Positions 1,716-53,601 of a DNA stretch of 64,000 bases are shown piece after piece. Below the pieces are notes generated by a model. It worked only from the letters and a program-made list of their open reading frames with translations, ran no database searches and was not told where the DNA came from. The DNA lies in assembly GCA_040877935.1 (NCBI GenBank), contig JBBDNB010000039.1, positions 1 through 64,000 of the forward strand. Direction: 5' to 3'. How positions within the stretch are numbered: position 1 is the first letter of the stretch; every line of letters starts with the position of its first letter. The position numbers and the translations under genes were made by a program. The stretch comes from Chitinophagales bacterium. Its GTDB lineage: Bacteria > Bacteroidota > Bacteroidia > Chitinophagales > CAIOSU01.

Positions 1716-2080
1716 AACCAAACCTGATGTACGATATAGCCAATAGAAGCAGCCAAAAAATAAAGGCACACTGGGGCTAAGCACAATACCTGGGCTTAAA
1801 CTTGCGCCAGCTATGAGTGTTTAAGTGAAAAATCCTTAACTTATCAGATCATTCCCAATATATACAGGGGGGGGGACAAAACCGGTTATGTGGAATTGAG
1901 CAGCGATGAAACAGGATATGTAGAGATATATTCTCCTACAGGGGTATTACTCAATACCGATAAATTATTTGGTGGTGTGAACTCAATTAATCTAGGGGGC
2001 TTACAAAAGGTGTATTTATTTATAAAATTATTGTGGACAATGAAGTCAAGACCAATAACAAATTGGTTGTGCTGGAGTAA
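1716..2080 (+). pseudogene. Fossil C-terminus of a T9SS-sorted protein
   Basis: Reading across frames gives YDIANRSSQKIKA, then after damage IIPNIYRGG, GYVEIYSPTGVLLNTDK, INLGGLQKG, VFIYKIIVDNEVK and NKLVVLE followed by TAA at 2078-2080. This is the end of a type A T9SS sorting domain (P-N-x-x-x-G, Y-x-x-x-G, G-x-F-x-Y-K). At least two frameshifts are needed, one beside a G9 run at 1867-1875. The first part is repeated at 4000-4075. No intact gene remains. The reading frame of the next gene begins inside this fossil. Confidence 0.7.
1867..1875 (+). repeat. G9 homopolymer tract
   Basis: Nine consecutive G lie inside the fossil sorting domain, at the point where the frame is lost. Long G tracts are slippage-prone. 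A shorter G6 at 474-479 marks the frameshift of the neighbouring gene. Confidence 0.8.
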
Positions 2081-3791
2081 GTTTATTGTGCTTTTAGTTT
2101 TAATACTATTACAAACCTCAACTCATGTATATTCTCAAAAAGAAGATAGAAATTGGTGCTTTGGATATAATGCTGGTATAAGCTTTACAGATATAAATAC
2201 CCCAATTTCTTTTAAGACTAAATCAAAAAATTTAACAATGTCATCTTCTGTTTCTGACGGTAATGGTGTACTTGAATTTTATGTAACTGCTACGTCTTTA
2301 CTTTCTCGTAAGTTTCTTTTAAGAGACTCAGACAATACTATAATACCTGGAAGTGATTCATTAAATTTTATTGATAATGGAGCATCGAGCCAAGCAATAT
2401 TTAAAATAAATGACAGTACTTACTACATTTTACATGTAGGTGAGTATTTAACTCAAAATTGCCCCTATATAAGATGTCTTAACTTGTACTACTCTGTAGT
2501 TATTAAAAGTTCAACATATGGTTTTTTTGTGTCAAAGAAAAATATCTCTATTGTAAATGAACCAATAGAAACTAGGTTTACATCAGTTAAACATTCAAAT
2601 GGAAATGATTGGTGGCTTTATGTACATGGTTTAAAGACTAATAACATTTCATCTACAAATCGATTTTATCGAATCTTATTAAGAAGCGATTCTATTTATA
2701 TGCCTATTTATCAAGATGTAGGAACGCAACATATTAGCATGAATAGTATTTTTTCTGAAATGACTACTTCTAAAAATGGTAATTTTTTAGCATCATGTAT
2801 AGATAATCAAAAAACTATAGATTTATTTAAAATCAATAGGTGTGATGGTCAGTTGGAGTTTTTTGATAATGTAACAGCAGATATAAATCCATATAGTTGT
2901 GAGTTTTCAAATAATGAGTCTAAATTATATATTACACAAGGAGTAGGTATATATTCAAATACCTTATTTCAGTTAGATTTAGACTCAAAAGATGATTCTC
3001 TTTCTAAGTTAAATTTATGGTCAACTACTGATAGTTTGGTTAGGATTGGACAATTACAGATAGGTCCTGATAATAAAATTTATATGTCCTCCGGTTATGG
3101 CAACAGCCTCCCCAATTTTCCATATAGTCCATACAATCAAAACCTAAGTGTTATCAATAATCCTGATTCTGCTGGCGTTGCATGTGACTTTCAACCTTTC
3201 AGCTTTTATTTAGGTGATAGCTCAAGGGCGCTCTTTGGTCTACCCAACATGCCAAACTACAACCTCGGCCCCACGAGCATCTATGCCGCAGATGCAGGAA
3301 ATGACACCGTTTTTTGTTCAAATATTTCCAGTGGTATAAAAATAGGCATTGCAAAAGTGGAAAATGTACAGTATTCCTGGTTTCCTTCAACAGGACTGAG
3401 TAATACCTCTATAGCCCAACCTATTGCAGCTCCTTCAGAAGATACCTGGTATTACTTAACCTTAACGGACACAACAATAGAATACTCCTGTCAATCCAGA
3501 ACGGATAGTGTGTTTGTGAAAGTGGAAATCTGTAGTTCAACAGAAGACTTAAACTCTTCTGAATCTAAACTGAGTATTTATCCCAACCCCACTCAAAACA
3601 TCCTCTACATCAAAAGCACATCACAAAATCACGAAGTAAGAAACATCCACATCATAGACCTCAACGGAAGAAATGTAATCTATACCAAACAAAGCCCCAT
3701 AAACACCAGTGAGCTTTCACAGGGCATTTATTTCTACCAGGTGGAAATGAGTGGTGGTGAAGTGGTGAGGGGAAAGTTTCTGAAAAATTGA
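2040..3791 (+). CDS. T9SS-sorted secreted protein of the NWxFG type
   Basis: 583 residues from the ATG at 2040. The open frame runs further upstream (to 1890), but that part is the out-of-frame fossil sorting domain. The ATG at 2040 gives a credible signal peptide: a short basic start, then IVLLVLILLQTSTHVYSQ ending near residue 33. The mature start ENRNW-like segment (EDRNWCFGYNAGISF) and later phrases such as VINNPDSAGVACDFQP and FGLPNM are typical of Bacteroidota secreted propeller-like proteins of unknown role. The C-terminal ~75 residues (LSIYPNPTQNILYIKS to RGKFLKN) are a type A T9SS sorting domain, nearly identical at DNA level to the tail of the gene ending at 1214. The product is predicted to be on the cell surface or released. 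Confidence 0.8.
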   Translation: MKSRPITNWLCWSKFIVLLVLILLQTSTHVYSQKEDRNWCFGYNAGISFTDINTPISFKTKSKNLTMSSSVSDGNGVLEFYVTATSLLSRKFLLRDSDNTIIPGSDSLNFIDNGASSQAIFKINDSTYYILHVGEYLTQNCPYIRCLNLYYSVVIKSSTYGFFVSKKNISIVNEPIETRFTSVKHSNGNDWWLYVHGLKTNNISSTNRFYRILLRSDSIYMPIYQDVGTQHISMNSIFSEMTTSKNGNFLASCIDNQKTIDLFKINRCDGQLEFFDNVTADINPYSCEFSNNESKLYITQGVGIYSNTLFQLDLDSKDDSLSKLNLWSTTDSLVRIGQLQIGPDNKIYMSSGYGNSLPNFPYSPYNQNLSVINNPDSAGVACDFQPFSFYLGDSSRALFGLPNMPNYNLGPTSIYAADAGNDTVFCSNISSGIKIGIAKVENVQYSWFPSTGLSNTSIAQPIAAPSEDTWYYLTLTDTTIEYSCQSRTDSVFVKVEICSSTEDLNSSESKLSIYPNPTQNILYIKSTSQNHEVRNIHIIDLNGRNVIYTKQSPINTSELSQGIYFYQVEMSGGEVVRGKFLKN

Positions 3792-16406: not shown

Positions 16407-16502
16407 GCAGGGCTTAAGAAAATATGTTTTTAAGCCTATTTTTTTCTGAGCATTACTTATCTTTGGCCGCTAACGAAAAGGATTTAAAACAAACAATAGG
16501 TT

Positions 16503-19500
16503 ATGAAAAGGATTTTTACGTCCCTTCTGTTGGCTGTTATAAGCATATCTGCTTATGCACAGTCCGGTGAGATATACGGTCAGGTTTTGGATGAAAACAA
16601 TGAAGGAATTCCTTTTGCGAATGTTCGTGTGGAGCAAAGTGGCGATCTAATCACAGGAGGAAGTACAGATTTTGAAGGGTTTTTTACAATCAAACCTTTG
16701 AACCCCGGAAAGTACGATGTGCGAATAACGTATATAGGTTACGCAACCTATCTTAATGAGGGTGTGGTGGTTCAGTCTGATAAAGTAACTGAACTAAATT
16801 TAAAAATGAAACCTCAGGAAACTCAGCTCGGTGAAGTTGAAGTTGTAGAATATCGAGTGCCGCTTATTGACAAAGATGACAATTCTACTAAGAATACAAT
16901 TTCTTCTGAGGAAATCGCCTCTTTACCTACGCGTAATGTTTCTTCTATTGCCTCTACAAGTGCCGGTGTCTATCAGGAAGATGAAAATCAAGGTTTAAAT
17001 ATAAAAGGGGCAAGGACTTCCGGTACTGAGACATATATAGATGGTATCAGGGTGCGTGGCGGTTCTAATATTCCTGCTAATGCTATTGAACAATTAACAG
17101 TAATTACAGGTGGTGTTCCTGCTAAATATGGTAATGCTACCGGTGGTGTAATCAATATTACAACCAAAGGGCCATCAAGAAATTTAAATGGAGGTGGTGA
17201 GGTTCTCACTTCCCAGTTTTTAGATGGCTATGGTTATAATTTGGGGAACCTGAATCTTACTGGTCCGATATGGAAGAAAAACAGAGGAACTGATGATGAA
17301 AAAACAATTGCAGGTTTCTTCCTTGCCGGTGAATTTTTAAGACAAAAAGACCGCGACCCTTCCGTAGTAGGAGTTGATGTTTTGAAAGAAGATGTGCTTG
17401 AAGATGTTAAAAACGCACCGCTTACTCGATCTCCAAACAATGATGGTTTTATATTGAAAGCAGAAACATTAACGGATGAGCATATTGAAAATGTGCATGT
17501 AAAGCCCAATTCAGTTAGAGACAATTATCGCCTTAGTGGTAAATTGGATTTTAAAGCTTCCGACAATGTGAATTTGACTTTTGGCGGAACAATGGATTAT
17601 ACCCGTTACAATCAATGGATCAATCGATTTACAATGATGAATTACGACAATAACCCTTTGTACAAGCAAATGTCATGGAGGGTTTTTGGCCGGTTGACAC
17701 AAAAATTCTCAAGAGATACTGAAGAAAGTGAAGAAAGAGCATTGATTCAAAATGCTTACTACACCCTTCAATTTGATTATTCAAAAGACTATTACACTGT
17801 AGAAAGTGAAAGGTTAGGGCAGAACCCTTTCGATTATGGTTATGTAGGAGAATTTGAAATTGATAGAGCTCCTGTTTATGAGTATGGAGAAGATCCTGTC
17901 TCTGGTTTAAACGGGTATCGCTTCAGTGGTTTACAGGATACAATGGTGCGATTTACTCCCGGCACAAGAAATCCCGGAGCTACCAGCTACACTGAAACTT
18001 TTTATGAATTGGCCGGGGATGATGCAGATTTCTACAGAAACCTGGATCAGATTGCAGGAAATAACGGGCTTAGAAATGGTGACCAACCCAGGATTCCACA
18101 TGGTATCTGGTATGGAACAGGTTATCAGTTTGATAATTATGGAACCTTACGGGACAATGATCAATATCGTTTTTCACTGAATGGTTCTTTTGATGTTGTA
18201 CCAGGTAAATCCAGTGACAGAAATAAGCACTCTATAGAATTTGGTTTTGAATTTGAGCAGCGAATAGATCGCAGGTATATTGTAAGCCCAACAAGAATAT
18301 GGGAAAGAATGCGTCAGCAGACCAATGCACATTTAAGCAATTTAGACACGGTACCAATTTTAATTATAGAAGGACAGGAATATGCCTATGATGATCCTAA
18401 CCGACCTGTATTTGGCATATATGACACTATGCGATACAACAGGTTGTATGATGCCAGTAGCCAGACTTATTTTGACAAGCAATTGAGAGAAAAGCTGGGG
18501 GTGCCTGTTAATAGCACTGAGCTGATAAATGTAGATGCTGTTGATCCAAGTATTTTGTCTTTGGATATGCTTACGGCTGATGACCTCTATAATGCCGGTA
18601 ACAGGAACCTCAATGCATATGGCTATGATCACAAAGGAAATAAATTTAAAGAGCAACCTTCTTTTGAAGATTTCTTTACGCAAAGAGATGAAGATGGCAA
18701 TTACACCAGAGCAATAGGAGCTTTCCGGCCAATATACACAGCAGCTTATCTTCAGGATAAATTCAACTTTAAAGACATCCTGTTTAATATAGGTGTTCGT
18801 ATTGACCGTTATGATGCCAATCAAAAAGTTTTAAAAGATAAGTACTCATTGTATGATGCACTAACACTGGAAGAAGCAAGAGACAGAATAGACCCGAGTG
18901 TAGAAGTGCCGGGAAATATTGGCGATGATTATGTGGTATATGTTCAAAGTGTAGATGATCTGGAAAACTTTGTTCCTGTAGGCTACAGAAGTGGAGATGA
19001 CTGGTATAATGTAGATGGAGAATTTGTTCAGGATCCGAGGGTTATTGCGCAGTCAATAGGAAGCTCAAGAGTATTGCCTGCACTATCTTCAGAAAGATAT
19101 ACAAATCCACAGCATATCCAGGACGAAGATTATGATCCAAATTCTTCTTTTGAAGATTACAAACCGCAAATTACTGTTCAGCCGCGTGTTGCATTTTCCT
19201 TTAACCTGACTGATGAAGCATCCTTTTTTGCACACTATGATATTTTGACACAGCGTCCTTCAGGTAGATTGATACAAACACCTGACACCTGGTACTACTT
19301 CAATGACCTGCCTTCAAATACGGTGATCAATAATCCGAATTTAAAGGCAGAGCGTACTGTTGATTATCAACTTGGATTTCGACAGTTGGTGACAAAAAAC
19401 TCTGCATTGACCATTTCTGCTTTTTATAGGGAAATGCGGGATATGATACAGGTTAGGGCTATCAATTTTGCTTACCCCAATACTTATGTCACTTACGACA

Positions 19501-20252
19501 ATATTGATTATGGTACAGTAAAAGGCTTGTCTTTGAGTTATGACTTGCGAAAAACAAGAACCAGCAATATTTCCATGAAATTGAACTATACCCTTCAATT
19601 TGCAGAAGGTACCGGTTCTGATGACCGTTCTCAGTTGAATCTTGTAAATGCTGGACAACCCAACCTGAGAACCATTGTGCCTTTGAATTACGACTCCAGA
19701 CACTTAATTAATGTAACACTGGATTACAGTTTTTCATCTGGCAGAGATTACAATGGTCCTAAATGGGGTGGCAAAGATGTGTTTTCCAATTCAGGAATTA
19801 ATATTATAGCAAGAGCCCGTTCTGGAGAGCCCTATACTTCACAGGCCAATCCAACAGCAGAAGCGCTGTTTACACAACCTGCCCGACCTGTATTGGAGGG
19901 TTCCATTAACGGTGCGCGGTTGCCCTGGAATTTCAGGCTTGATTTCAGGGTTTTCAAAACTTTCAATTTTGAAACAAGGAAGAAAGATGAAAATCGCAGT
20001 GGGCGTCCGGTTAACCTGAATATTTATTTGTTGATTCAGAACTTGCTCAATACCAAGAATGTTATCAATGTTTATCCCTATACCGGAAATGCAGATGATG
20101 ATGGTTACCTGACTTCAAATCAAGGTCAGCAACAATTGGAAAATCAAGTGAATAGTGCTTCATTTTCAAGTATGTATTATGCCTGGTTGAATAATCCGGA
20201 CAATTACAGCTTGCCGAGACAAATCAGGCTTGGAGCAATTTTATCCTTTTAA
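16503..20252 (+). CDS. TonB-dependent receptor with CarboxypepD_reg-like domain
   Basis: 1249 residues. Signal peptide MKRIFTSLLLAVISISAYAQ, then a carboxypeptidase-regulatory-like beta domain (residues ~22-105), plug (ISSEEIASLP, SAGVYQ, YIDGIRVRG, GVPAKYGNATGGVINI) and a large barrel ending in ILSF with a terminal Phe. This is an energised outer-membrane receptor of SusC/CirA type; no SusD partner follows. Instead the next two genes encode a giant secreted protein and a PorV/PorQ-like protein, with no or tiny gaps, so substrate import may not be its only job. TATCTTTG at 16458-16465 is a possible -7 box. Confidence 0.93.
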   Translation: MKRIFTSLLLAVISISAYAQSGEIYGQVLDENNEGIPFANVRVEQSGDLITGGSTDFEGFFTIKPLNPGKYDVRITYIGYATYLNEGVVVQSDKVTELNLKMKPQETQLGEVEVVEYRVPLIDKDDNSTKNTISSEEIASLPTRNVSSIASTSAGVYQEDENQGLNIKGARTSGTETYIDGIRVRGGSNIPANAIEQLTVITGGVPAKYGNATGGVINITTKGPSRNLNGGGEVLTSQFLDGYGYNLGNLNLTGPIWKKNRGTDDEKTIAGFFLAGEFLRQKDRDPSVVGVDVLKEDVLEDVKNAPLTRSPNNDGFILKAETLTDEHIENVHVKPNSVRDNYRLSGKLDFKASDNVNLTFGGTMDYTRYNQWINRFTMMNYDNNPLYKQMSWRVFGRLTQKFSRDTEESEERALIQNAYYTLQFDYSKDYYTVESERLGQNPFDYGYVGEFEIDRAPVYEYGEDPVSGLNGYRFSGLQDTMVRFTPGTRNPGATSYTETFYELAGDDADFYRNLDQIAGNNGLRNGDQPRIPHGIWYGTGYQFDNYGTLRDNDQYRFSLNGSFDVVPGKSSDRNKHSIEFGFEFEQRIDRRYIVSPTRIWERMRQQTNAHLSNLDTVPILIIEGQEYAYDDPNRPVFGIYDTMRYNRLYDASSQTYFDKQLREKLGVPVNSTELINVDAVDPSILSLDMLTADDLYNAGNRNLNAYGYDHKGNKFKEQPSFEDFFTQRDEDGNYTRAIGAFRPIYTAAYLQDKFNFKDILFNIGVRIDRYDANQKVLKDKYSLYDALTLEEARDRIDPSVEVPGNIGDDYVVYVQSVDDLENFVPVGYRSGDDWYNVDGEFVQDPRVIAQSIGSSRVLPALSSERYTNPQHIQDEDYDPNSSFEDYKPQITVQPRVAFSFNLTDEASFFAHYDILTQRPSGRLIQTPDTWYYFNDLPSNTVINNPNLKAERTVDYQLGFRQLVTKNSALTISAFYREMRDMIQVRAINFAYPNTYVTYDNIDYGTVKGLSLSYDLRKTRTSNISMKLNYTLQFAEGTGSDDRSQLNLVNAGQPNLRTIVPLNYDSRHLINVTLDYSFSSGRDYNGPKWGGKDVFSNSGINIIARARSGEPYTSQANPTAEALFTQPARPVLEGSINGARLPWNFRLDFRVFKTFNFETRKKDENRSGRPVNLNIYLLIQNLLNTKNVINVYPYTGNADDDGYLTSNQGQQQLENQVNSASFSSMYYAWLNNPDNYSLPRQIRLGAILSF

Positions 20253-20270
20253 TTGAAAAATACGCATGTC

Positions 20271-23200
20271 ATGAGCGCATATAAATCTATAATAGCCGCA
20301 TTATTAATAATCTCAATCATCCCACTGAATGCCAAGGAGAATGTCGGACAGTCGGGTAAGGCAGGGAAATTTTCAAAACTTGCTGCCACTTGTTCTCCTG
20401 CAAGTGCTCAGACAAATTTGAACATTAACAATGTACGAACTACCATGTTGAATGGAGGTGATATGTGGTGGGATTTAAATGATGCAAAATATGAAATCCC
20501 TAAAATTGATCCGCCCGGCTCAGCACCTAGTGTACATTCTTTATTTGCGGGTGCAATATGGTTGGCAGGACTTGATGCAGGCGGACAATTGAAAACAGCT
20601 GCACAAACCTATCGTCAGAATGGTAATGATTTTTGGCCGGGCCCTTTGGACAATATTGGAAATGTTACTGAACAAACATGTAACCGTTTTGACCGGCATT
20701 TTAGAGTTCTGGGTGCAGACATTGATGATCATATCGCATTTTTTGACCAAAACCCTTCAGGGCAAAGACCATTATCGGATATTCCTGCAGGTATTCAGGA
20801 ATGGCCTGCTTTAGGGAATGTGAATTCCAGGGCCGCGAATGGCAGTCCCATGCAGATCAATCAGGATTTAGCCCCGTTTTTTGACTTTAATGAAAATGGA
20901 TTTTATGACCCTGAAAATGGGGATTATCCGGTAATAGGTGTTCGAGAAACCAACAATCAATCGCCTGGTGCACAAGCAGCGACTTTGTCCACCTATGGTG
21001 ATCAAATGATCTTTTGGGTATATAATGACAAGGGAGATGTGCATGGTGAAACCGGTGGTCAGTCTATTGGTGTTGAAATTGGCGCTTTGGCATTTGCTTT
21101 CAATACTTCTGATGAGATTAACAACATGACCTTTTACAGGTATATTATTAGAAACAAAGCGACTACCCGCATAGGTGATTTTTATATGGGACAATGGGTG
21201 GATCCCGACCTGGGATGTTTTAACAATGATTTTGTAGGTTGTGATACTTCGCGGGATATGGGTATATGCTACAATGGAACACCTACCGATCCTGATTGTG
21301 CATCTCGTGGATACGGAGCCAACCCTCCATTGGTGGCTACGGTTTATTTTGAAGGGCCGCTTGCAGATATTGACCCGAATGCCGGCCCTAATGACCCGAG
21401 GGAAACGCTGGGGATGTCCACTTTTACTTACTACAACAATGATTTTTCAGTTACAGGGAATCCTGAAACTGCTGTGCATTATTACAATTATATGCGCGGT
21501 TTTTGGAAGGACAATACACCTTTTACAGAAGGTGGAAATGCTTATGGAGGGTCAGTTCCAACAACGTATATGTTCCCCGGAGATCCTTCTGAGCCCTCAG
21601 AATGGTCTGAATGTAGCGAAGGAAACACACCTGCCGATAGAAGATACCTTCAATCATCCGGTCCTTTCACCCTTGAACCAGGTGATGTGAACACTATAAC
21701 TGTAGGAGTTGTTTGGACACGTCCCACAGGTTTTGCTTGTGGCTCATTTGATGCTGCCATAGGTAATTCCGCTGATAATGCTTTGGCATTGTTTAGAAAT
21801 AATTTCCAATTAATTGACGGTCCGGATGCCCCAACATTGCAAATAAGAGAGCTCAGCAATGAACTGGTTATTTCTTTTGTAAATGAACCGGGCTCTAATA
21901 ATGTAGGGCAGTCTTATGATGAAGGGAGTACAGATGCCGTAAATTATTTTACAAATATTGACAGTACCATAACCGATACTACTTATACTTTCCAGGGTTA
22001 TATTTTATACCAGTTGAGAGACCCTTCTGTTTCTGTAGAAAACCTGGATGACCCCACCGTATCCAGAGTGGTTGCACAGGTAGATATAAGAGATGATGTG
22101 GATCAAATTGTTAATTATAGTTTAAACCAGGAACTTAGTCCTTATCCGATACCTGAATTAATGGTAGATGGAAATAATGAAGACATACGAACTACTTTTA
22201 GAATTACCCAGGATTTATTTGGTGAAGAGGGTGTAGGGCTTGTTAACCACAAGACCTATTACTATACAGCCATTGCTTATGCATACAATAACTACTTACC
22301 TTTTGACCCTGTTAATAGCCCTAAAGGTCAGCAAAAACCTTTTCTGCAAGGCCGTAGGAATGTGAGTGTTTATTCTGGCATTCCACATCAGCCAGAACCC
22401 GGTTCAGAAGGAACCCGTGTTAATTCTGCTTATGGGGATATGCTGCCTGTAACAAGAATTGAAGGTGCTGGCAATGGAGGTTTTTCGCTTAACTTAACAG
22501 ATGAATCTATTGAAGAAATACTCAATAATGGTGGATTTTACGGCCCTGTAGTTTATGAAGGTGGAAATGCACCTATAGAGGCAATGGTTTACGATCCCTT
22601 TAAAGTTAAAAATGTTGATTTTAAGCTGTCTATGAAAGATTCGTCAGTTTTACCACCATATTTAGCGACAAAAGATGATGAAATCCTTTCTGATACAGCA
22701 GTATGGGAATTGGAAATCAGTGATGGGACTGTATTGGATATAATCCCTTCTGAAAGAGATATTGCAGTTGTCAATCAACAATTGATTCAGGAATATGGCA
22801 TCAGTATCAGGATTAAACAAGTGGAACAAAATTGTGACAGCACTGACCCTTCAGGAAATATTACTGCACTCAGAAACTGGACTAATGCCAATGGATTTAT
22901 AGAAGCGAGTAAAGCCTATGCTGATCCTCAGCAAAATTGGCTGGGTGGAATTGAGGATCAAAGCACCAATTCTTATTTCAACTGGATTAGGTCAGGAAAT
23001 TACAGGGAGCAACAGCCGGATCCTCCGGCATCTCCTGAATATTTAAATGTATTTAATGATTACAATTACGAAGCTCAAGTTCCAGGTGGTGTTCAAGAAA
23101 TTGAATATGCATTTTGGGATGAAGATCAAGAATTCAGTACCATTTTAGATGGAACATGGGCACCATATGGCCTAACATCATACCAGTTTCACAATGAATT

Positions 23201-24392
23201 GGTTGGAAAAATTATCAGTTTTCCAACATCTGCTATTCCTGCCAGATCTGGTGAAACACATGGGCCAGGTTTTGTAACTAGAGCCAATGCAGGCTTTACA
23301 CAAAGTATTGAAGGTACTGAGAATACAATTAACAGACTGCAAAGTGTTGATATCGTCTTTACAGATGACAGGGACAAATGGACGCGCTGTGTTGTATTAG
23401 AAACATCCGGTGATTCACTCTTAAGTGAGGGCAATGCAATCAAAGGAAATATTAGAATGACCGAATCTCTTGGCAAAAATTTCCAACCGCTGTTTGGAGA
23501 TACAGGTCGCTCCTGGTTTCCTGGTTATGCTGTAAATGTAGAAACCGGTCAGCGCCTTAATATCATGTTTGGTGAAAGTTCCTGGTTGCAGGAAGACAAT
23601 GGTAGGGATATGATTTGGAATCCGACATCCAATCAAACCTCTCCTTTATTCAATGTTTTGTTTGGAGGCAAACACTATATCTATGTAATGGAAACCCCTT
23701 ATGATGAAGGGGAGCGTGCGCAAAGAATACTTTTAGATAATTTCAATGTTTATCCACACATAGGAGGCACAACAACACCCCGTGAAAATGTAGTCTTAAG
23801 AGACAGTATTTATAATAAGATCATGTGGACATCAATGCCCGTAGTGAATCCCGGGAATAAGCTTAAATCAGCTGAGGAAGGTTTAATACCTACTGAAACC
23901 AAAGTCAAATTAAGAGTAAACACTCCATACAGTAGACTTGCGATTACTGGTGAAAATGAAGGTTTGCCGCTCTATACATTTAGCACAGAAGGCATGGGTA
24001 TAGAACACCGAATAGCAGAAGTAGCTGAAGATGCACTGGATGAGATTCGTGTAGTACCCAATCCATACTATGCCTACTCTGAATATGAGACCAATCAGCT
24101 TGACAATAGGGTGAAAATCACTAATTTGCCCGATGAATGCACGGTATCAATATTTACGCTGGCAGGAACTTTAATTCGACAATTTGACAGGGATGTAAAC
24201 TCCAGTACATCTGTAGGAACTTCTACTGACCGAAATAATTTGGATAATTCTATAGATTGGGACTTGAGAAATGATAAACGAATTATGATTGCAAGTGGAG
24301 TTTATCTTATACATGTAGAAGTTCCTGGAGTTGGAACAAAAGTAATTAAGTGGTTTGGAGTAATGCGTCCGATTGATTTGGACACGTTCTAA
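20271..24392 (+). CDS. Giant secreted protein, middle gene of the TonB-PorV triad
   Basis: 1373 residues from the ATG at 20271; a TTG at 20253 abuts the previous stop. Signal peptide: YKSIIAALLIISIIPLNAK. The mature N-terminus has NNVRTTMLNGGDMWWD and SLFAGAIWLAGLDAGGQLK, a block I associate with large uncharacterised Bacteroidota exoproteins. The C-terminal ~120 residues look like a sorting-type fold (VVPNPYYAYS, VSIFTLAGTLIRQFD, ASGVYLIHVEV) but end GVMRPIDLDTF, 15 residues beyond the usual T9SS end. It is probably surface-exposed and exported by T9SS. It may be assembled with its two neighbours; the role is unknown. Confidence 0.8.
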   Translation: MSAYKSIIAALLIISIIPLNAKENVGQSGKAGKFSKLAATCSPASAQTNLNINNVRTTMLNGGDMWWDLNDAKYEIPKIDPPGSAPSVHSLFAGAIWLAGLDAGGQLKTAAQTYRQNGNDFWPGPLDNIGNVTEQTCNRFDRHFRVLGADIDDHIAFFDQNPSGQRPLSDIPAGIQEWPALGNVNSRAANGSPMQINQDLAPFFDFNENGFYDPENGDYPVIGVRETNNQSPGAQAATLSTYGDQMIFWVYNDKGDVHGETGGQSIGVEIGALAFAFNTSDEINNMTFYRYIIRNKATTRIGDFYMGQWVDPDLGCFNNDFVGCDTSRDMGICYNGTPTDPDCASRGYGANPPLVATVYFEGPLADIDPNAGPNDPRETLGMSTFTYYNNDFSVTGNPETAVHYYNYMRGFWKDNTPFTEGGNAYGGSVPTTYMFPGDPSEPSEWSECSEGNTPADRRYLQSSGPFTLEPGDVNTITVGVVWTRPTGFACGSFDAAIGNSADNALALFRNNFQLIDGPDAPTLQIRELSNELVISFVNEPGSNNVGQSYDEGSTDAVNYFTNIDSTITDTTYTFQGYILYQLRDPSVSVENLDDPTVSRVVAQVDIRDDVDQIVNYSLNQELSPYPIPELMVDGNNEDIRTTFRITQDLFGEEGVGLVNHKTYYYTAIAYAYNNYLPFDPVNSPKGQQKPFLQGRRNVSVYSGIPHQPEPGSEGTRVNSAYGDMLPVTRIEGAGNGGFSLNLTDESIEEILNNGGFYGPVVYEGGNAPIEAMVYDPFKVKNVDFKLSMKDSSVLPPYLATKDDEILSDTAVWELEISDGTVLDIIPSERDIAVVNQQLIQEYGISIRIKQVEQNCDSTDPSGNITALRNWTNANGFIEASKAYADPQQNWLGGIEDQSTNSYFNWIRSGNYREQQPDPPASPEYLNVFNDYNYEAQVPGGVQEIEYAFWDEDQEFSTILDGTWAPYGLTSYQFHNELVGKIISFPTSAIPARSGETHGPGFVTRANAGFTQSIEGTENTINRLQSVDIVFTDDRDKWTRCVVLETSGDSLLSEGNAIKGNIRMTESLGKNFQPLFGDTGRSWFPGYAVNVETGQRLNIMFGESSWLQEDNGRDMIWNPTSNQTSPLFNVLFGGKHYIYVMETPYDEGERAQRILLDNFNVYPHIGGTTTPRENVVLRDSIYNKIMWTSMPVVNPGNKLKSAEEGLIPTETKVKLRVNTPYSRLAITGENEGLPLYTFSTEGMGIEHRIAEVAEDALDEIRVVPNPYYAYSEYETNQLDNRVKITNLPDECTVSIFTLAGTLIRQFDRDVNSSTSVGTSTDRNNLDNSIDWDLRNDKRIMIASGVYLIHVEVPGVGTKVIKWFGVMRPIDLDTF

Positions 24393-24410
24393 AAATTATA
24401 TACACAAGAA

Positions 24411-25556
24411 ATGAAAAGGATGTTTAATAGGCTATTTATTTTTTCTGTTTGCTTAGTACTAAGCACAAACTCCCTTTTAGCGGGAAATGAAGACAGAGCC
24501 GGTGAAGCTGGTGGTTATGAATTGTTGATGAACGGTTGGGCTAGAAGTTCAGGCATGTATGGCATGAATTCTTCAAGAGTTGAAGGTCTTGAAGCTATGC
24601 GAATAAATGTTGCAGGTCTGGCACATGCACCAAACACTGAAGTTGTATTTTCCCATTCCAGATGGCTTTTCGATTCGCAGGTAAGTATTAATGCTGCCGG
24701 TATTGCTCAGGCAATTGGAAAGGAGAAAACTAATTTTATAGGGTTGAATATCAATTCTGTAAGTTTTGGGGATATTGAAATCACTACTACCAATTCTCCA
24801 GAAGGTGGTCTGGGCACATATAGTCCGAATTTTTTAAATATAGGTCTGGCTTTTTCAAGAGCATTTTCTGAGAGTATATATGGAGGTGTAGTTGTACGCT
24901 TTCTTAATCAACGCGTACCTGATTTGAGTGCTTCAGGTGTGGCTTTAGATGCTGGAATTCAATATGTAACAGGTAAACTTGACCAAATCCGTTTTGGTGT
25001 TTCTCTTAGAAATGTTGGTACACCAATGAAGTTTGGTGGAGAAGGGCTAACTTTTAGGGGGGATGCTCCATCGGGTTCTTATAATCTGACTGTAAGCAGT
25101 AGAACTCAAAAGTTTGAGCTTCCATCACTTCTGCATATTGGTGCTTCTTATGATCTTTATGCAGATAATTTGAAAAACAACCCTGATTTAGCTGCCGATC
25201 ACAGAATTACAATAGCTTTTAATTTTACCTCCAATTCATTTGGCAAAGATCATGTAGGTGGAGGTCTTGAATATTCCTATCGAGAAATGTTCCAGGTAAG
25301 AGCAGGTTACCGCTATGAAAAAGGGTTGACCGATGCAGAAACCAGAACGACTGATTTTGTGGGGATTGCTGCCGGAGCTTCTGTAATGGTGCCTTTTAAA
25401 GAAGAAGGTCCTGCAATGGGAATTGATTATTCTTATCGCCCATCTCAGGTTTTTGGTGGAACACATTCTATTGGCCTCCGTTTTAACTTAGGCACAAAAG
25501 TACCTCCGTTTAAAAAGAAAAAATCTAAAGAAGAGGTCTTTCAGGAAGAAGGCTAA
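24411..25556 (+). CDS. PorV/PorQ family outer-membrane protein
   Basis: 381 residues. Signal peptide to about residue 24 (LVLSTNSLLAG), then a FadL-like barrel with the PorV/PorQ layout: a start rich in G-A-x-x-M (SSGMYGMNSSRVEGLEAM), NVAGLAH, SHSRWLFD, and many short amphipathic strands ending IGLRFNLGTKV. The last ~20 residues are Lys/Glu-rich. PorV collects T9SS substrates at the outer membrane and hands them to the attachment complex. This one lies 18 bases after the giant exoprotein and is probably its dedicated partner. Confidence 0.85.
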   Translation: MKRMFNRLFIFSVCLVLSTNSLLAGNEDRAGEAGGYELLMNGWARSSGMYGMNSSRVEGLEAMRINVAGLAHAPNTEVVFSHSRWLFDSQVSINAAGIAQAIGKEKTNFIGLNINSVSFGDIEITTTNSPEGGLGTYSPNFLNIGLAFSRAFSESIYGGVVVRFLNQRVPDLSASGVALDAGIQYVTGKLDQIRFGVSLRNVGTPMKFGGEGLTFRGDAPSGSYNLTVSSRTQKFELPSLLHIGASYDLYADNLKNNPDLAADHRITIAFNFTSNSFGKDHVGGGLEYSYREMFQVRAGYRYEKGLTDAETRTTDFVGIAAGASVMVPFKEEGPAMGIDYSYRPSQVFGGTHSIGLRFNLGTKVPPFKKKKSKEEVFQEEG

Positions 25557-25576: not shown

Positions 25577-25618
25577 AAAAAAACGTTTCAATTCGCTTTG
25601 AAGCGTTTTCTTTTTATA
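25577..25618 (+). terminator. Intrinsic terminator before greA
   Basis: AAAACGTTTCAA (25580-25591), a five-base loop, TTTGAAGCGTTTT and a T-rich tail form a near-perfect stem 20 bases after the PorV-like stop. It closes the triad operon; greA starts just after it, so attenuation of read-through is possible. Confidence 0.75.
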
Positions 25619-26523: not shown

Positions 26524-26573
26524 TATTTCAAAATGTAGGGGCTCACGGCCGTGAGCCCCTACATTTTGAAATA
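26524..26573. repeat. 50-base perfect palindrome between convergent genes
   Basis: Every position from 26524 to 26573 pairs with its mirror about the centre at 26548/26549, with no loop. The inner part contains TGTAGGGGCTCACGGCCGTG and its complement, a GC-rich core in AT-rich DNA, flanked by ATTTCAAAA/TTTTGAAAT. It can serve as a two-way terminator but is far longer and more regular than one needs to be. The core resembles REP-type elements I know from other phyla. Confidence 0.9.
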
Positions 26574-47682: not shown

Positions 47683-50600
47683 ATGCTATTCGTGAATTAT
47701 ATGTCTTTTCCCTATCTATTTTTGATTGCTTTCTTTTCGGGATTTTTGTTAATGCCTACCGCATTAAGCGCCCAGCACAACCATGAACAATGCGGCACCA
47801 TGCATGCTGATAGTGTGTTGCGTCAAAAACACAATCTGCCGAGCTTAAAGGATTTCGAACAATGGCTGGCCCCCAAAATTGCCAACAGGCAGAACCAAAG
47901 AAACAGCCTGGGGCGTTTTTCAGGACCGGATGTTTATACTTTGCCGGTGATTGTGCATGTGGTGCACAATGGCGATCCGGTAGGAAGCAATGAAAACATC
48001 AGCGCAGCACAGGTCTATTCACAGATTGATGTTTTGAATGAAGATTTCAGAAGGCTAAATCCCGATACCGGGAATGCTCCTGCCAATTTCCAGGCTGTGG
48101 CCTCAGATGTGGGAATTGAATTTTGCCTGGCACAGATCGACCCCAGTGGTAATGTACTGTCAGAGCCTGGAATCAACAGGTACAATGGAGGGCAGGCAAC
48201 CTGGGGCAGCACCAATGATATTGACAACAATTTGAAACCGGCTACCATCTGGAATCCCGATCAGTATTTTAATATCTGGGTGGTGGATTTTGGCAATACC
48301 GGATTGCTGGGCTATGCGCAATTTCCCTCACTTTCAGGTTTAGGAGGAATGCCCGGAAATGGCGGACCTGCCAATTCTGACGGGATTGTTTGCCTGTACC
48401 GCGCATTTGGCACCACCGGAAATGTAAGTGCCCCGAGCAATGGCGGAAGAACAGCCACGCACGAAGCCGGGCACTGGTTGGGATTAAGGCATATCTGGGG
48501 AGATGGTGGATGTGGAACTGACGATTTCTGTGCAGATACGCCTGAATCTGATGATTCAAACCGGGGATGCCCCACTACCGTTAACTGTGGCACCCAGGAT
48601 ATGGTGCAGAATTATATGGACTACACCAATGATGCCTGCATGAATATTTTTACCGAAGACCAGGTAGCCCGTATGCGAACGGTAATGCTGAACAGCCCGA
48701 GGAGAGGCATTTTGGCCAATTCCATGGTTTGCCAGGCGCTTGATCAGTACACATTGAGCGGGCAGGTGCGCGATGCAAGTACATTGAACGGCATTGCCAA
48801 TGCCGAAGTGTTGATCGATGGTTCCTTTGATTACAATGTAACTGCCGATGCGCTGGGCAATTTCAGCATTGATGTTTTTGAAGGTACTTATGATATCTAT
48901 GCCGGAAAATGGAGTTATGTGACCAATGTAAACACCGGTATTAGTGTTTTGGCAAATACGGGGCCTGTCTATATTGATTTGGAAACTGGTTGGTACGATG
49001 ATTTTCTCTTTGATTTCAACTGGACAGAAAGCGGTAATGCTACAACAGGAAACTGGGAAAGAGGCGCACCAATCGGCACTGATTTTAATGGAGAACCCTG
49101 TAATTCAGGAAGTGATGTGGCCAATGATTATGGAGACCAGGCTTTTGTTACCGGCAATGGCGGGGGCAATGCAGGAACAGATGATGTGGATGATGGCACA
49201 ACCACCCTTACTTCCCCTGTATTTGACCTGAGCAGCTATTCCGAACCGTTTATCAGCTATTACCGATGGTTCTACAATTCAGGGGGAACCGGAACACCCA
49301 ACGACAGCCTGATTGTAAGGTTGACCAATGGCGTAAATACTGAAGTGATTGATCTGCTGGATGTCAATTCACCCAACAGCAACCAGTGGAATTTCAACGA
49401 AATCAAAGTCAGTGATTACATGGCTCCTACGGCCAATATGCAGCTTATCGTTGAAGCTTTTGACAAACCCTCGGTGGGACACCTGGTAGAAGCCGGTTTG
49501 GATTTGTTCAAGGTGGTAGATTCCGTGATCAATCAGAATGCACCTCCTGTGACTAATTTCGGTGCAGCACCCCGGACCATTTGTGCCGGTGATACCGTGC
49601 AGTTTACAGATCTTTCAAGCAATACACCCACTGCCTGGAACTGGACTTTCCAGGGAGGCAATCCTGCTTCAAGTTCAGCGGAAAACCCTGCGGTGATCTA
49701 TAATTCCCCGGGTGTTTATGAGGTCTCGCTTACTGCATCCAATACCTATGGCCAGGACACAAAAACCGAATCGGCCTATATTACGGTTGAAGGAGTGTCT
49801 GCAGATTTTACGGCCAATATTACCGATGGTTGCCCTGGTATTACGGTTCAATTTTCTGATCTATCCACTTGCGATGTTATTTCCTACAACTGGAATTTTC
49901 CCGGTGGAACACCCGTTACTTCAACCGACCCGAATCCTGTGGTTACCTATAATTCTGTAGGCGATTTCGATGTATCGCTCACGGTGAATGGCCCCAACAG
50001 TTTTGATACACATACTGAATTTGATTTTATCTCAATTGGCACCGGAATGGTAAATGTCTTTTTTGAAGACTTTGAATCAGAAAGTTTTGCCACCAATAAC
50101 TGGACCATTGACAATCCGGACAATGCCATCACATGGGACATATATTCCGTTGACGGTACCCAAAGTGGCACTTTTGCTGCCGGCATTAATTTTTACTCCT
50201 ACAACAATGCCATTGGAGCTGAAGACGGTCTGATTACTCCTGTGCTGAATCTTGGCAATATTATCAATACGGAGTTGAATTTCGATCATGCATTTAGAAG
50301 GTATTCACAAAACCAACAGGATTCATTGAAAATTTTGGTTTCTACCGATGGAGGGAATACCTACCCGAATATTGTCTTTGCCCGTGCAGAGGACGGAACA
50401 GGCAGCTTTGCAACCAATGCTACTACCACAGCAGATTTTTATCCCTCTGCCACTGATGATTGGTGTTTTGGGGGAACCATAGGTGCAAGCTGCTTTACCG
50501 TTGATCTCAGTGCTTTTGATCAAATGAACAATGTGCGTCTGAAGTTTTTGTCTGTAAATGATTATGGCAATAACCTTTACCTCGACAATATTGATGTTAG

Positions 50601-53600
50601 CGGGGAATGTACCGCTATTGATTTATCGCCCATTGCTGATTTCACTTCAAATGTAACGGAAGTTTGTGAAGGTGGAACAGTTGATTTTACCGATATTTCA
50701 CAAAAAAACCCGGATACCTGGAACTGGAGTTTTCCCGGTGGAACACCAAACTCTTCATCAAGCCAAAATCCAAGCGTAAGCTACAATACGCCCGGAAATT
50801 ACCCGGTAACACTTGCAGTCAGCAATCCCGATGGCAGTGATACCACTACGGTAAGCGGATACATTACGGTATATGAAAGCCCATCAGCAATTGTTTCAGG
50901 TGATGAGCCTTTGTGTTTTGGCAATACAAATGGAACAGTTTCCGTAAATGCAAGTGGTGGAACTGCTCCTTATACCTATGAATGGAATTCAGGAGAAACC
51001 ACTGGCACAATCACCGCTGTGGGGGCAGGTAATTTTTTAGTAACTGTTACGGATGCAAATAATTGTACGGCAAGTGACAGCTATACTTTGAGCCAGCCCG
51101 ATAGTTTAACCCTAAATATCAGTGGAAATGCTGCCTATTGTGGCAACAGCAATGGTTCCGCTTCAGTACAGGTTTCGGGTGGTACGGCTCCTTATGTCTA
51201 TTCATGGAGTACAGGCGACAATACAGCGTCCCTTGATTTTCTTTCGGGAGGTAATTATTCAGTAACCGTTACCGACAACAACAATTGCAGTAAAACCGCT
51301 ACCATAACAATCCAGGATATACAGGTCAATCTGAACCTTGATTTGCTTGTAACTCCCCTTACATGTAACAATGGAAGTGATGCTGCCCTGGATCTGAATG
51401 TTTCGGGTGGTGCTGCTCCCTATCACTACAATTGGAACACTGGCGATAGTACAGCTTCGATCAGCAACCTGGGTGCAGGCGCATTTGCGGTAACGGTAAG
51501 GGACAGCAACTTCTGTACTGCTGATACTTCGGTTAGCATATCGAATCCTGCCGGATTGAATGTTAATGCCCAAACGACAGATGCAAGTTGTGGCAATAGC
51601 GATGGAAGCATTACGGTAAATGTTTCCGGAGGAACATCCCCTTATGATTTTGACTGGAGCAATGGTGATACTTCCGCAACGATCAGCAACCTGGCTTCCG
51701 GCAATTATGAATTGACCATTACAGATGCACAATCCTGTAGCGAGATTTATTCCTATTCCATTAATAATGTAGGAGGGCCTTCTGTTCAGGCCAGTATTGA
51801 CAGTATTTCCTGCAATGGCAGTGCTGACGGAAATATCAGCCTTTCGGTTTCCGGAGGAACTGCTCCTTATTCATTTGACTGGAGTACCAATGCCACCGAT
51901 AGTTTTATCAATAATCTTTCAGCTGGAACTTATTCGGTGACTGTTAGTGATCAAAACAATTGCAATACCATCAGAACCTATCTGTTAAATAATCCTGACC
52001 CAATTCAGTTGAATGAACAAATTACTAACTCTGCTTGTGATACTGCTGATGGAGCAATCAATCTTGTTGTTCAAAATGGGACAGCACCATACCAGGCAAG
52101 CTGGAGCAATGGTGCCAATGGCCTGTCTGTCAATAATCTCCCGGCTGGAAATTATACTGTTACCGTGACAGATGCCAATACCTGTGAACAAACGGCAAGC
52201 TATTCGGTAGCTACATTAAGTGGACCATCGGTACAATTGACCCTTGTGGATGTAGATTGCAATAGTGCAGCAAGCGGAGCTGCTTCTTTAAATCCTTCAG
52301 GTAGCGGCCCCTTCCAGTATCTGTGGTCAAATGGCAATACCGACTCTATCAACAGCAATTTAAGTGAAGGGGTGTATTCCTTCACGGTTACCGATGCCAA
52401 TGGCTGTGAAAAAGCGGATACTTTCAACATATCAGAACCACAGCCTATACAGGTAAATGCTACTATTTCAGATGCTACCTGTGGCCAATCGGATGCTTCG
52501 ATTACAGTTAATGTGACCGGAGGAACATCACCCTATACTTATTTGTGGAGCACCGGCCAGGTGAGTAAAACAATCAGCAACCTTCAGTCGGGCAATTACG
52601 AATTGACTGTTACCGATGCCATGGGCTGCACAAGGTTCAGGAGCTATAATGTAAATGATGCAGGAGGTGCAAATCTGATTGCGGTTAAAACAGATGTTTC
52701 CTGTTCAGGGGCTTCAGATGGCAGTATTGATTTGAGCCTGAGCGGAGGAGTGCCACCATACAATTATAACTGGTCGAATGGCTCAAGCAGCCAAGATATC
52801 TCTGGTTTAAGCCCGGGTTCCTATTCAGTAACAGTTACAGATGCGGCAGGCTGTTCATCAGTAGCATCTTCTATTATCCGCAGTCCTGATCCACTTAGTA
52901 TAGGTTTTTCTATAAAGAATGTGCAGTGTGGCGAAAAATTGGGCGAAGTCATACCACAGGTCAGCGGTGGTTCTGGATCCTATAATTTCAACTGGTCAAC
53001 TGGTGCTGATGATTCTGTTTTTGTTGAAGTAGCAGGAACTTACGAACTCACTGTTACGGATGACAATTTGTGTACTTTGCTGGATACGCTAATGATAGAA
53101 GAATTGAACCTGGATATTGACTTGCAAATCGCTGCCGACAGTGGGCAGTCAAACGGCTCGGTGCTGGTAGATGTAAATGGTGGTACTCCTCCATACAGCT
53201 ATACCTGGCTGGATACTACATTGAGTGGTAATTCTGCAAGTGACCTGGCAGCGGGCACATATGTGTTGATCGTAAAGGATTCCCTGGCTTGCGATGCAAG
53301 GGTGGAGATTGAGATTCCGTTGTTTTCTTCCATTGGAATGCCGACAGGTCAGGCAGACATCCATTTGGATTTGTACCCAAACCCCAACTCAGGTGATTTT
53401 GTGGTGAAATTACAGCCATTGAACGAGGCATTGCAGTTTGAAATGTACAATACCCTGGGCAAACTCTTGAATGCCGGGCAAATCAATGCAGGCAGTTCTA
53501 CCTATAATTTTAATTATAGGCATGCAGCCGCTGGCATTTATTTTTTACGATTCAGAAATGCAGAAATAGATATTGTCAGGAAGGTGATTATTTCTGATTG

Positions 53601-53601
53601 A
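47683..53601 (+). CDS. Giant T9SS-secreted M43 metalloprotease with PKD and SprB-like repeats
   Basis: 1972 residues. Signal peptide ends near LMPTALSAQ (residue 30). The M43 (cytophagalysin/pappalysin) catalytic domain has HEAGHWLGLRH at 261-271, a C-G-T-D-D-F-C loop and the Met-turn NYMDYTNDACM. Then come a CarboxypepD_reg-like domain (~356-420), a jelly-roll-like region, two PKD domains (~626-790), another lectin-like region, a third PKD (~982-1065), eleven tandem SprB-like repeats (~1072-1882, each ~65-75 residues with SGGTAPY and YSVTVTD) and a type A T9SS sorting domain (LDLYPNPNSGDF to VIISD). Predicted to be a surface-bound or released protease with an adhesin-like stalk. Confidence 0.93.
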   Translation: MLFVNYMSFPYLFLIAFFSGFLLMPTALSAQHNHEQCGTMHADSVLRQKHNLPSLKDFEQWLAPKIANRQNQRNSLGRFSGPDVYTLPVIVHVVHNGDPVGSNENISAAQVYSQIDVLNEDFRRLNPDTGNAPANFQAVASDVGIEFCLAQIDPSGNVLSEPGINRYNGGQATWGSTNDIDNNLKPATIWNPDQYFNIWVVDFGNTGLLGYAQFPSLSGLGGMPGNGGPANSDGIVCLYRAFGTTGNVSAPSNGGRTATHEAGHWLGLRHIWGDGGCGTDDFCADTPESDDSNRGCPTTVNCGTQDMVQNYMDYTNDACMNIFTEDQVARMRTVMLNSPRRGILANSMVCQALDQYTLSGQVRDASTLNGIANAEVLIDGSFDYNVTADALGNFSIDVFEGTYDIYAGKWSYVTNVNTGISVLANTGPVYIDLETGWYDDFLFDFNWTESGNATTGNWERGAPIGTDFNGEPCNSGSDVANDYGDQAFVTGNGGGNAGTDDVDDGTTTLTSPVFDLSSYSEPFISYYRWFYNSGGTGTPNDSLIVRLTNGVNTEVIDLLDVNSPNSNQWNFNEIKVSDYMAPTANMQLIVEAFDKPSVGHLVEAGLDLFKVVDSVINQNAPPVTNFGAAPRTICAGDTVQFTDLSSNTPTAWNWTFQGGNPASSSAENPAVIYNSPGVYEVSLTASNTYGQDTKTESAYITVEGVSADFTANITDGCPGITVQFSDLSTCDVISYNWNFPGGTPVTSTDPNPVVTYNSVGDFDVSLTVNGPNSFDTHTEFDFISIGTGMVNVFFEDFESESFATNNWTIDNPDNAITWDIYSVDGTQSGTFAAGINFYSYNNAIGAEDGLITPVLNLGNIINTELNFDHAFRRYSQNQQDSLKILVSTDGGNTYPNIVFARAEDGTGSFATNATTTADFYPSATDDWCFGGTIGASCFTVDLSAFDQMNNVRLKFLSVNDYGNNLYLDNIDVSGECTAIDLSPIADFTSNVTEVCEGGTVDFTDISQKNPDTWNWSFPGGTPNSSSSQNPSVSYNTPGNYPVTLAVSNPDGSDTTTVSGYITVYESPSAIVSGDEPLCFGNTNGTVSVNASGGTAPYTYEWNSGETTGTITAVGAGNFLVTVTDANNCTASDSYTLSQPDSLTLNISGNAAYCGNSNGSASVQVSGGTAPYVYSWSTGDNTASLDFLSGGNYSVTVTDNNNCSKTATITIQDIQVNLNLDLLVTPLTCNNGSDAALDLNVSGGAAPYHYNWNTGDSTASISNLGAGAFAVTVRDSNFCTADTSVSISNPAGLNVNAQTTDASCGNSDGSITVNVSGGTSPYDFDWSNGDTSATISNLASGNYELTITDAQSCSEIYSYSINNVGGPSVQASIDSISCNGSADGNISLSVSGGTAPYSFDWSTNATDSFINNLSAGTYSVTVSDQNNCNTIRTYLLNNPDPIQLNEQITNSACDTADGAINLVVQNGTAPYQASWSNGANGLSVNNLPAGNYTVTVTDANTCEQTASYSVATLSGPSVQLTLVDVDCNSAASGAASLNPSGSGPFQYLWSNGNTDSINSNLSEGVYSFTVTDANGCEKADTFNISEPQPIQVNATISDATCGQSDASITVNVTGGTSPYTYLWSTGQVSKTISNLQSGNYELTVTDAMGCTRFRSYNVNDAGGANLIAVKTDVSCSGASDGSIDLSLSGGVPPYNYNWSNGSSSQDISGLSPGSYSVTVTDAAGCSSVASSIIRSPDPLSIGFSIKNVQCGEKLGEVIPQVSGGSGSYNFNWSTGADDSVFVEVAGTYELTVTDDNLCTLLDTLMIEELNLDIDLQIAADSGQSNGSVLVDVNGGTPPYSYTWLDTTLSGNSASDLAAGTYVLIVKDSLACDARVEIEIPLFSSIGMPTGQADIHLDLYPNPNSGDFVVKLQPLNEALQFEMYNTLGKLLNAGQINAGSSTYNFNYRHAAAGIYFLRFRNAEIDIVRKVIISD

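Follow-up and report, generated by a model that had tools for sequence, protein, structure and literature searches.

Why are a TonB-dependent receptor, an exoprotein of 1373 residues and a PorV-like protein encoded side by side in a member of the Chitinophagales? The original prediction, made from the sequence alone, held that the three genes are one surface-assembly operon, that a dedicated PorV copy shuttles a single cargo, and that the products form a specialised export-and-capture machine. We followed up this proposal in the window (the whole 64,000-nucleotide stretch of DNA that was analysed) and in related genomes of the Bacteroidota.

Results

The three genes form one operon

The open reading frames lie on the + strand in the order TonB receptor (TBDR, 1249 aa, 16503..20252), exoprotein (EXO, 1373 aa, 20271..24392) and PorV-family outer-membrane barrel (PORV, 381 aa, 24411..25556), with intergenic gaps of 18 bases each. 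PORV starts at the ATG at 24411. EXO also has an ATG start; an alternative TTG start at 20253 would give a protein of 1379 aa. Upstream, an intrinsic terminator (16410..16437, + strand; an 11-pair stem, then a T run) separates a PGDH-like gene from the trio. It is followed by a candidate Bacteroidota-type promoter −7-like element, TATCTTTG (16458..16465, + strand), which was read from the sequence and fits TAnnTTTG, the Bacteroidota promoter −7 consensus. A second intrinsic terminator (25580..25609, + strand) lies 3' of PORV and is conserved in the order, being found directly 3' of PORV in 17 of 19 relatives. The two terminators enclose exactly TBDR, EXO and PORV. The ORFs are as predicted, namely a receptor, a 1373-residue protein and a PorV-like protein with gaps of at most about 20 bases, and the claim of a single operon is borne out by the 18-base gaps and the terminators on both sides.

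The trio is flanked by ksgA and PGDH-like genes on one side and by greA and HIT on the other. Because a terminator intervenes between PORV and greA-HIT, the latter are taken as mere neighbours and not as part of the unit. Further downstream, a perfect 48-base palindrome with 24-base arms (26525-26572) lies between the HIT and ruvC-like genes and is probably a two-way terminator.

The gene order is conserved across the phylum

The order and strand of TBDR-EXO-PORV are kept in 20/20 fetched loci of the order, mostly with ksgA, PGDH, greA and HIT around them. At the level of the class Bacteroidia, 80 loci were drawn from Chitinophagales, Flavobacteriales, Bacteroidales, Saprospiraceae and others, and 68 contain all three genes in order. 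Some of the remaining 12 loci lie at contig edges, one (L114) keeps TBDR-EXO but lacks PORV, and in about ten EXO is the only gene of the three. About ten full-length EXOs thus stand without an adjoining PORV; the genome of one of them (L061) carries a full trio elsewhere (L062). Of the loci fetched from other classes of Bacteroidota, 31 of 35 contain the trio, comprising 17 of 20 seeded with EXO and 14 of 15 seeded with PORV, the fifteenth being truncated. Some of these genomes have two complete copies, for example L288 and L289 (both in genome G323), and one locus (L292) has two neighbouring trios, the second cut by the locus end. These counts exclude chance and agree with the expectation that the same three-gene order would recur in other Bacteroidota.

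Of 100 relatives, 81 have a match to EXO. Specifically, EXO and PORV are both present in 76 genomes, EXO only in 5, PORV only in 0 and neither in 19 (Fisher p 3e-16, a value that ignores shared ancestry). PORV was scored as present at >=280 bits; the highest score in any EXO-negative genome is about 63 bits. The EXO-only genomes (G006, G012, G020, G043 and G080) are mostly incomplete, or their EXO matches are partial or at the level of paralogues.

PORV is a separate clade of the PorV family

PORV belongs to the PorV/PorQ family, with a score of 133 bits against NCBIfam NF033709 (cut-off 90), and matches PorV in the PDB (6h3i, E 2.7e-11). It scores far below the equivalog cut-offs for PorV, PorQ and PorV2; for PorV the score is 55 bits against a cut-off of 250. 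In a careful, unrooted tree a branch with support 99/98 sets all 28 trio PORVs apart, and there is a separate clade for each of PorV, PorQ and PorV2. PORV also stands apart in a larger quick tree. Most trio PORVs start with (D/N)R.G..GA.ELL after the signal peptide, a motif absent from PorV, PorQ and PorV2 of this genome. The same genome encodes PorV beside PorU, PorQ, PorV2 beside a large PorU-like protein, and PorZ, all of them elsewhere, so PORV substitutes for none of PorV, PorQ and PorV2. To judge from these sequence comparisons, PORV is an old sister subfamily within the PorV family and a distinct orthologue group. Consequently, a dedicated PorV-family protein does stand beside one cargo, but the equivalog scores and the tree rule out that it is an extra copy of PorV. 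An assignment of PORV as the PorP/SprF of a type B cargo was also rejected, since it is of the PorV family and the window protein has no match to PF11751.

Other arrangements of PorV-family genes were seen in the survey. In G000:C15 and its relatives (L262-L268, L274), a PorV2 barrel adjoins a PorU-like protein of ~1690 aa, the end of which is near the PorU CTD (hhalign 99.8%). This pair resembles the trio in that a PorV-family barrel lies beside one large CTD protein, but it differs in the barrel clade and in its sortase-like partner, and in genome G027 PorV2 is present without the trio. Three PorV-like genes stand in tandem at L205/L223 (G012:C283) and L216/L224 (G007:C248). A further PorV-family clade, outside PorV, PorQ, PorV2 and the trio group, occurs at L225, L228 and L229.

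The N-terminal half of EXO is predicted to be a beta-supersandwich

A Pfam search of EXO gave no match, and its profile found no relative by sequence in the PDB. A PADLOC search for defence systems also gave no match, by which identity with such a system was ruled out, and no viral contig matched the EXO patterns used. The structure model was more informative. The N-terminal half (residues 28-690) was modelled with a mean pLDDT of 87.5, and residues 41-514 (20391..21812, + strand) are predicted from the model and its fold match to form a galactose-mutarotase-like beta-supersandwich. The best match is 9ju0 (Z 18.7, 252 aligned, rmsd 3.2), and the model resembles the N-terminal supersandwich of GH94, GH15, GH65 and GH116 enzymes. 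In those enzymes the supersandwich is followed by a helical catalytic barrel, whereas in the EXO model it is followed by a beta-rich domain (residues ~521-673, 21831..22289, + strand), which shows strands in the model and is FN3-like by sequence appearance; no search identified its fold. The predicted sugar-enzyme-type fold suggests ligand capture. The supersandwich domain also occurs in ordinary T9SS cargo and is not proof of sugar binding.

Two other proteins of this genome share the EXO N-domain (467 and 404 bits) and end in type A CTDs. No PORV-group gene was found on the contigs of these two paralogues, indicating that PORV accompanies the tail rather than the N-domain. At G000:C21:405-1781 (L272), a paralogue of the EXO N-domain that ends in a type A tail lies ~10 kb from sprA (C21:11663).

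The C-terminal end of EXO resembles that of PorZ

The model of the EXO C-terminal half has a mean pLDDT of 79.5 and ends in the Ig-like sorting fold of T9SS CTD proteins. Residues 1248-1366 (24012..24368, + strand) are thus predicted to be a T9SS-type C-terminal sorting domain (CTD) that is PorZ-like and carries a W-hairpin motif. The best solved match of this domain is the PorZ CTD (5m11; Z 10.4, 28% identity), and PorZ ranks first in Foldseek (E 7.8e-6). The last ~100 residues also give a weak profile match to the ends of PorZ and PorU, and hhalign profile scores are 54.5 for PorZ, 53.0 for PorU, 44.3 for PorU2 and 42.0 for type A, with no sharp separation. Since the structural matches after PorZ, that to PorU among them, have scores close to those of unrelated Ig folds, it is the PorZ match and the profile comparison that carry weight.

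A W-D motif before G-x-Y is found in EXO ends of the order (20/20), of the class (78/80) and of other classes (19/19), as well as in PorU (20/20), PorZ (26/26) and PorU2 (8/8). It is found in 0/27 type A cargo ends and is absent from two EXO paralogues. Beyond the last strand, most of 80 homologues have a conserved tail, KWFG.MRP.DL..F or near it, the end of which corresponds to EXO residues 1367-1373 (24369..24389, + strand). EXO as a cleaved type A cargo was rejected by profile: it matches neither PF18962 nor an NCBIfam type A model, and the paralogues with type A tails do match. The sorting end is therefore atypical, as had been claimed, with a PorZ-like CTD, a W-hairpin and an extra conserved tail.

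The genome as a whole has 139 type A CTD matches. Within the window, 47683-53601 encodes a typical T9SS cargo, an M43 peptidase of 1972 aa that contains PKD and SprB repeats and ends in an ordinary type A tail, and the product of 1890-3791 also has a type A tail.

PORV is fused to OmpA domains in several lineages

In three families of the order (f4, f6 and f9), PORV runs on into an OmpA domain (E 6e-44, 1.3e-19 and 3.2e-20, respectively). Six further long PORVs show the domain with a model built from these families, and 13 of 76 PORVs lie in frames >500 aa. The fusions carry one or two OmpA peptidoglycan-binding domains (L050, L053, L054, L275-L280). No description of PorV-OmpA fusions was found in the literature searched, with most subscription journals and preprints outside.

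The fusions and the CTD bear on whether PORV travels. As a dedicated shuttle only, PORV would take EXO from the translocon to the usual sortase, which would cleave it. Homology with the shuttle PorV speaks for such a role, but a barrel fused to OmpA, as in three families, would be hampered in shuttling, a general PorV is present in a genome with 139 type A CTD matches, and the W-hairpin and extra tail set the EXO end apart from cleaved cargo; we consider this the least likely of the explanations weighed here. The fusions together with the PorZ-like sorting domain favour a fixed anchor over a mobile shuttle. Of the predicted cargo shuttle, the PorV-family barrel remains and the shuttling is disfavoured.

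The receptor is joined to EXO by gene order

TBDR has a signal sequence, a carboxypeptidase-regulatory domain (residues 24-114), a plug (residues 128-216) and a barrel, and exceeds the Pfam cut-offs for PF13620, PF13715, PF07715 and PF00593. No SusC/RagA model is among its NCBIfam matches. Identity with SusCD is ruled out, as there is no SusC model on the receptor and no SusD Pfam match. The only evidence for a functional link between TBDR and EXO is gene order.

Alternatively, EXO and PORV could be a cognate anchored pair in which EXO acts in structure, adhesion or the envelope, with TBDR being a separate importer or signal transducer. Consistent with this, the CTD and OmpA evidence bears on EXO and PORV only, and in most genomes of the class EXO occurs as one conserved protein, in the manner of a housekeeping component of the envelope. 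However, in all classes sampled nearly every untruncated trio begins with TBDR, and duplicates of the cassette comprise all three genes. We regard a separate receptor as possible but doubtful.

Discussion

Our best reading is that the trio is a surface capture-and-import complex, SusCD-like in logic but delivered by the T9SS, in which EXO is held by an uncleaved CTD in PORV and serves TBDR; we give this a probability of about 0.5. Specifically, we infer that EXO would be exported through Sec and the T9SS, that the PorU sortase would leave its CTD on, and that PORV would hold this CTD as PorQ holds that of PorZ and PorV that of PorU. If the CTD stays bound, PORV would be mainly a membrane anchor, which in some lineages the OmpA domain would tie to the cell wall. 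The extracellular ligand bound by the supersandwich half would probably be a glycan or a molecule that carries sugar, which EXO would pass to the co-encoded TBDR. Of the predicted export-and-capture machine, the dedicated barrel and the conserved order stand, and the supersandwich fold suggests capture; the shuttle role of PORV fits less well with the OmpA fusions and the PorZ-like CTD.

An accessory role in the T9SS itself, in sorting or LPS handling, as for PorZ-PorQ and the reported PorF, is unlikely. In its favour, the EXO CTD is nearest to PorZ, in Cytophaga PorV and a TonB receptor co-purify, and the TonB receptor PorF of P. gingivalis is required for normal secretion, the kind of T9SS role being unknown (PMC8564354); the role of PorF keeps this rival alive. 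Moreover, all EXO-positive genomes are SprA-positive (70/70; lists compared by eye) in a phylum sample of 296 genomes, 227 of them SprA-positive. However, many T9SS-positive genomes lack the trio, PorU, PorV, PorQ and PorZ are all separately present in this genome, and the double trio copies in some genomes fit substrate diversity better.

The capture complex can be compared with known systems. PorU and PorZ keep their CTDs, bound by PorV and PorQ, respectively (PMC5562754, PMC10202324), and a review proposes that cognate PorV-like barrels shield CTDs from cleavage (PMC10202324). The PorZ-like hairpin by itself is insufficient to stop cleavage, and the same source treats what sets cleaved CTDs apart from uncleaved ones as still to be determined (PMC11285876). 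The trio resembles these pairs in that a PorV-family barrel is paired with a CTD protein that would retain its CTD, the one in EXO being nearest to that of PorZ. It differs in the barrel clade and in the TonB receptor in the operon, and EXO has a predicted supersandwich in place of propellers or a sortase domain.

In type B systems, a cargo gene is likewise followed by its own 14-strand barrel, PorP/SprF, with PorE supplying an OmpA-type cell-wall link (PMC9143113, PMC12618676); such anchoring has been put forward for PorE-PorP and for type B cargo (PMC9143113). PorV recognises all type A CTDs, and type B cargo has private shuttles, according to a 2025 paper (PMC12618676). Unlike in these systems, the CTD of the trio is predicted to have the PorZ/type A Ig fold, the barrel is of the PorV family instead of PorP/SprF, some lineages have an OmpA fusion in cis, and a TonB receptor is present. 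With SusCD it shares a TonB receptor encoded next to what would be a surface-exposed binding partner, but EXO is not SusD by Pfam and apparently no lipoprotein, and the trio adds its own PorV-family barrel.

No description of the trio was found in the literature searched, with most subscription journals and preprints outside, in line with the claim that it had not yet been described. The trio combines what would be a cognate CTD-barrel pair, of the PorZ/type A fold and the PorV family, with a TonB receptor, and this combination is found phylum-wide. The trio supplies many natural CTD-barrel pairs, with ordinary-CTD paralogues as controls, for the barrel-protection idea (PMC10202324). If the import role is true, T9SS export and TonB uptake would be united in one ancient complex.
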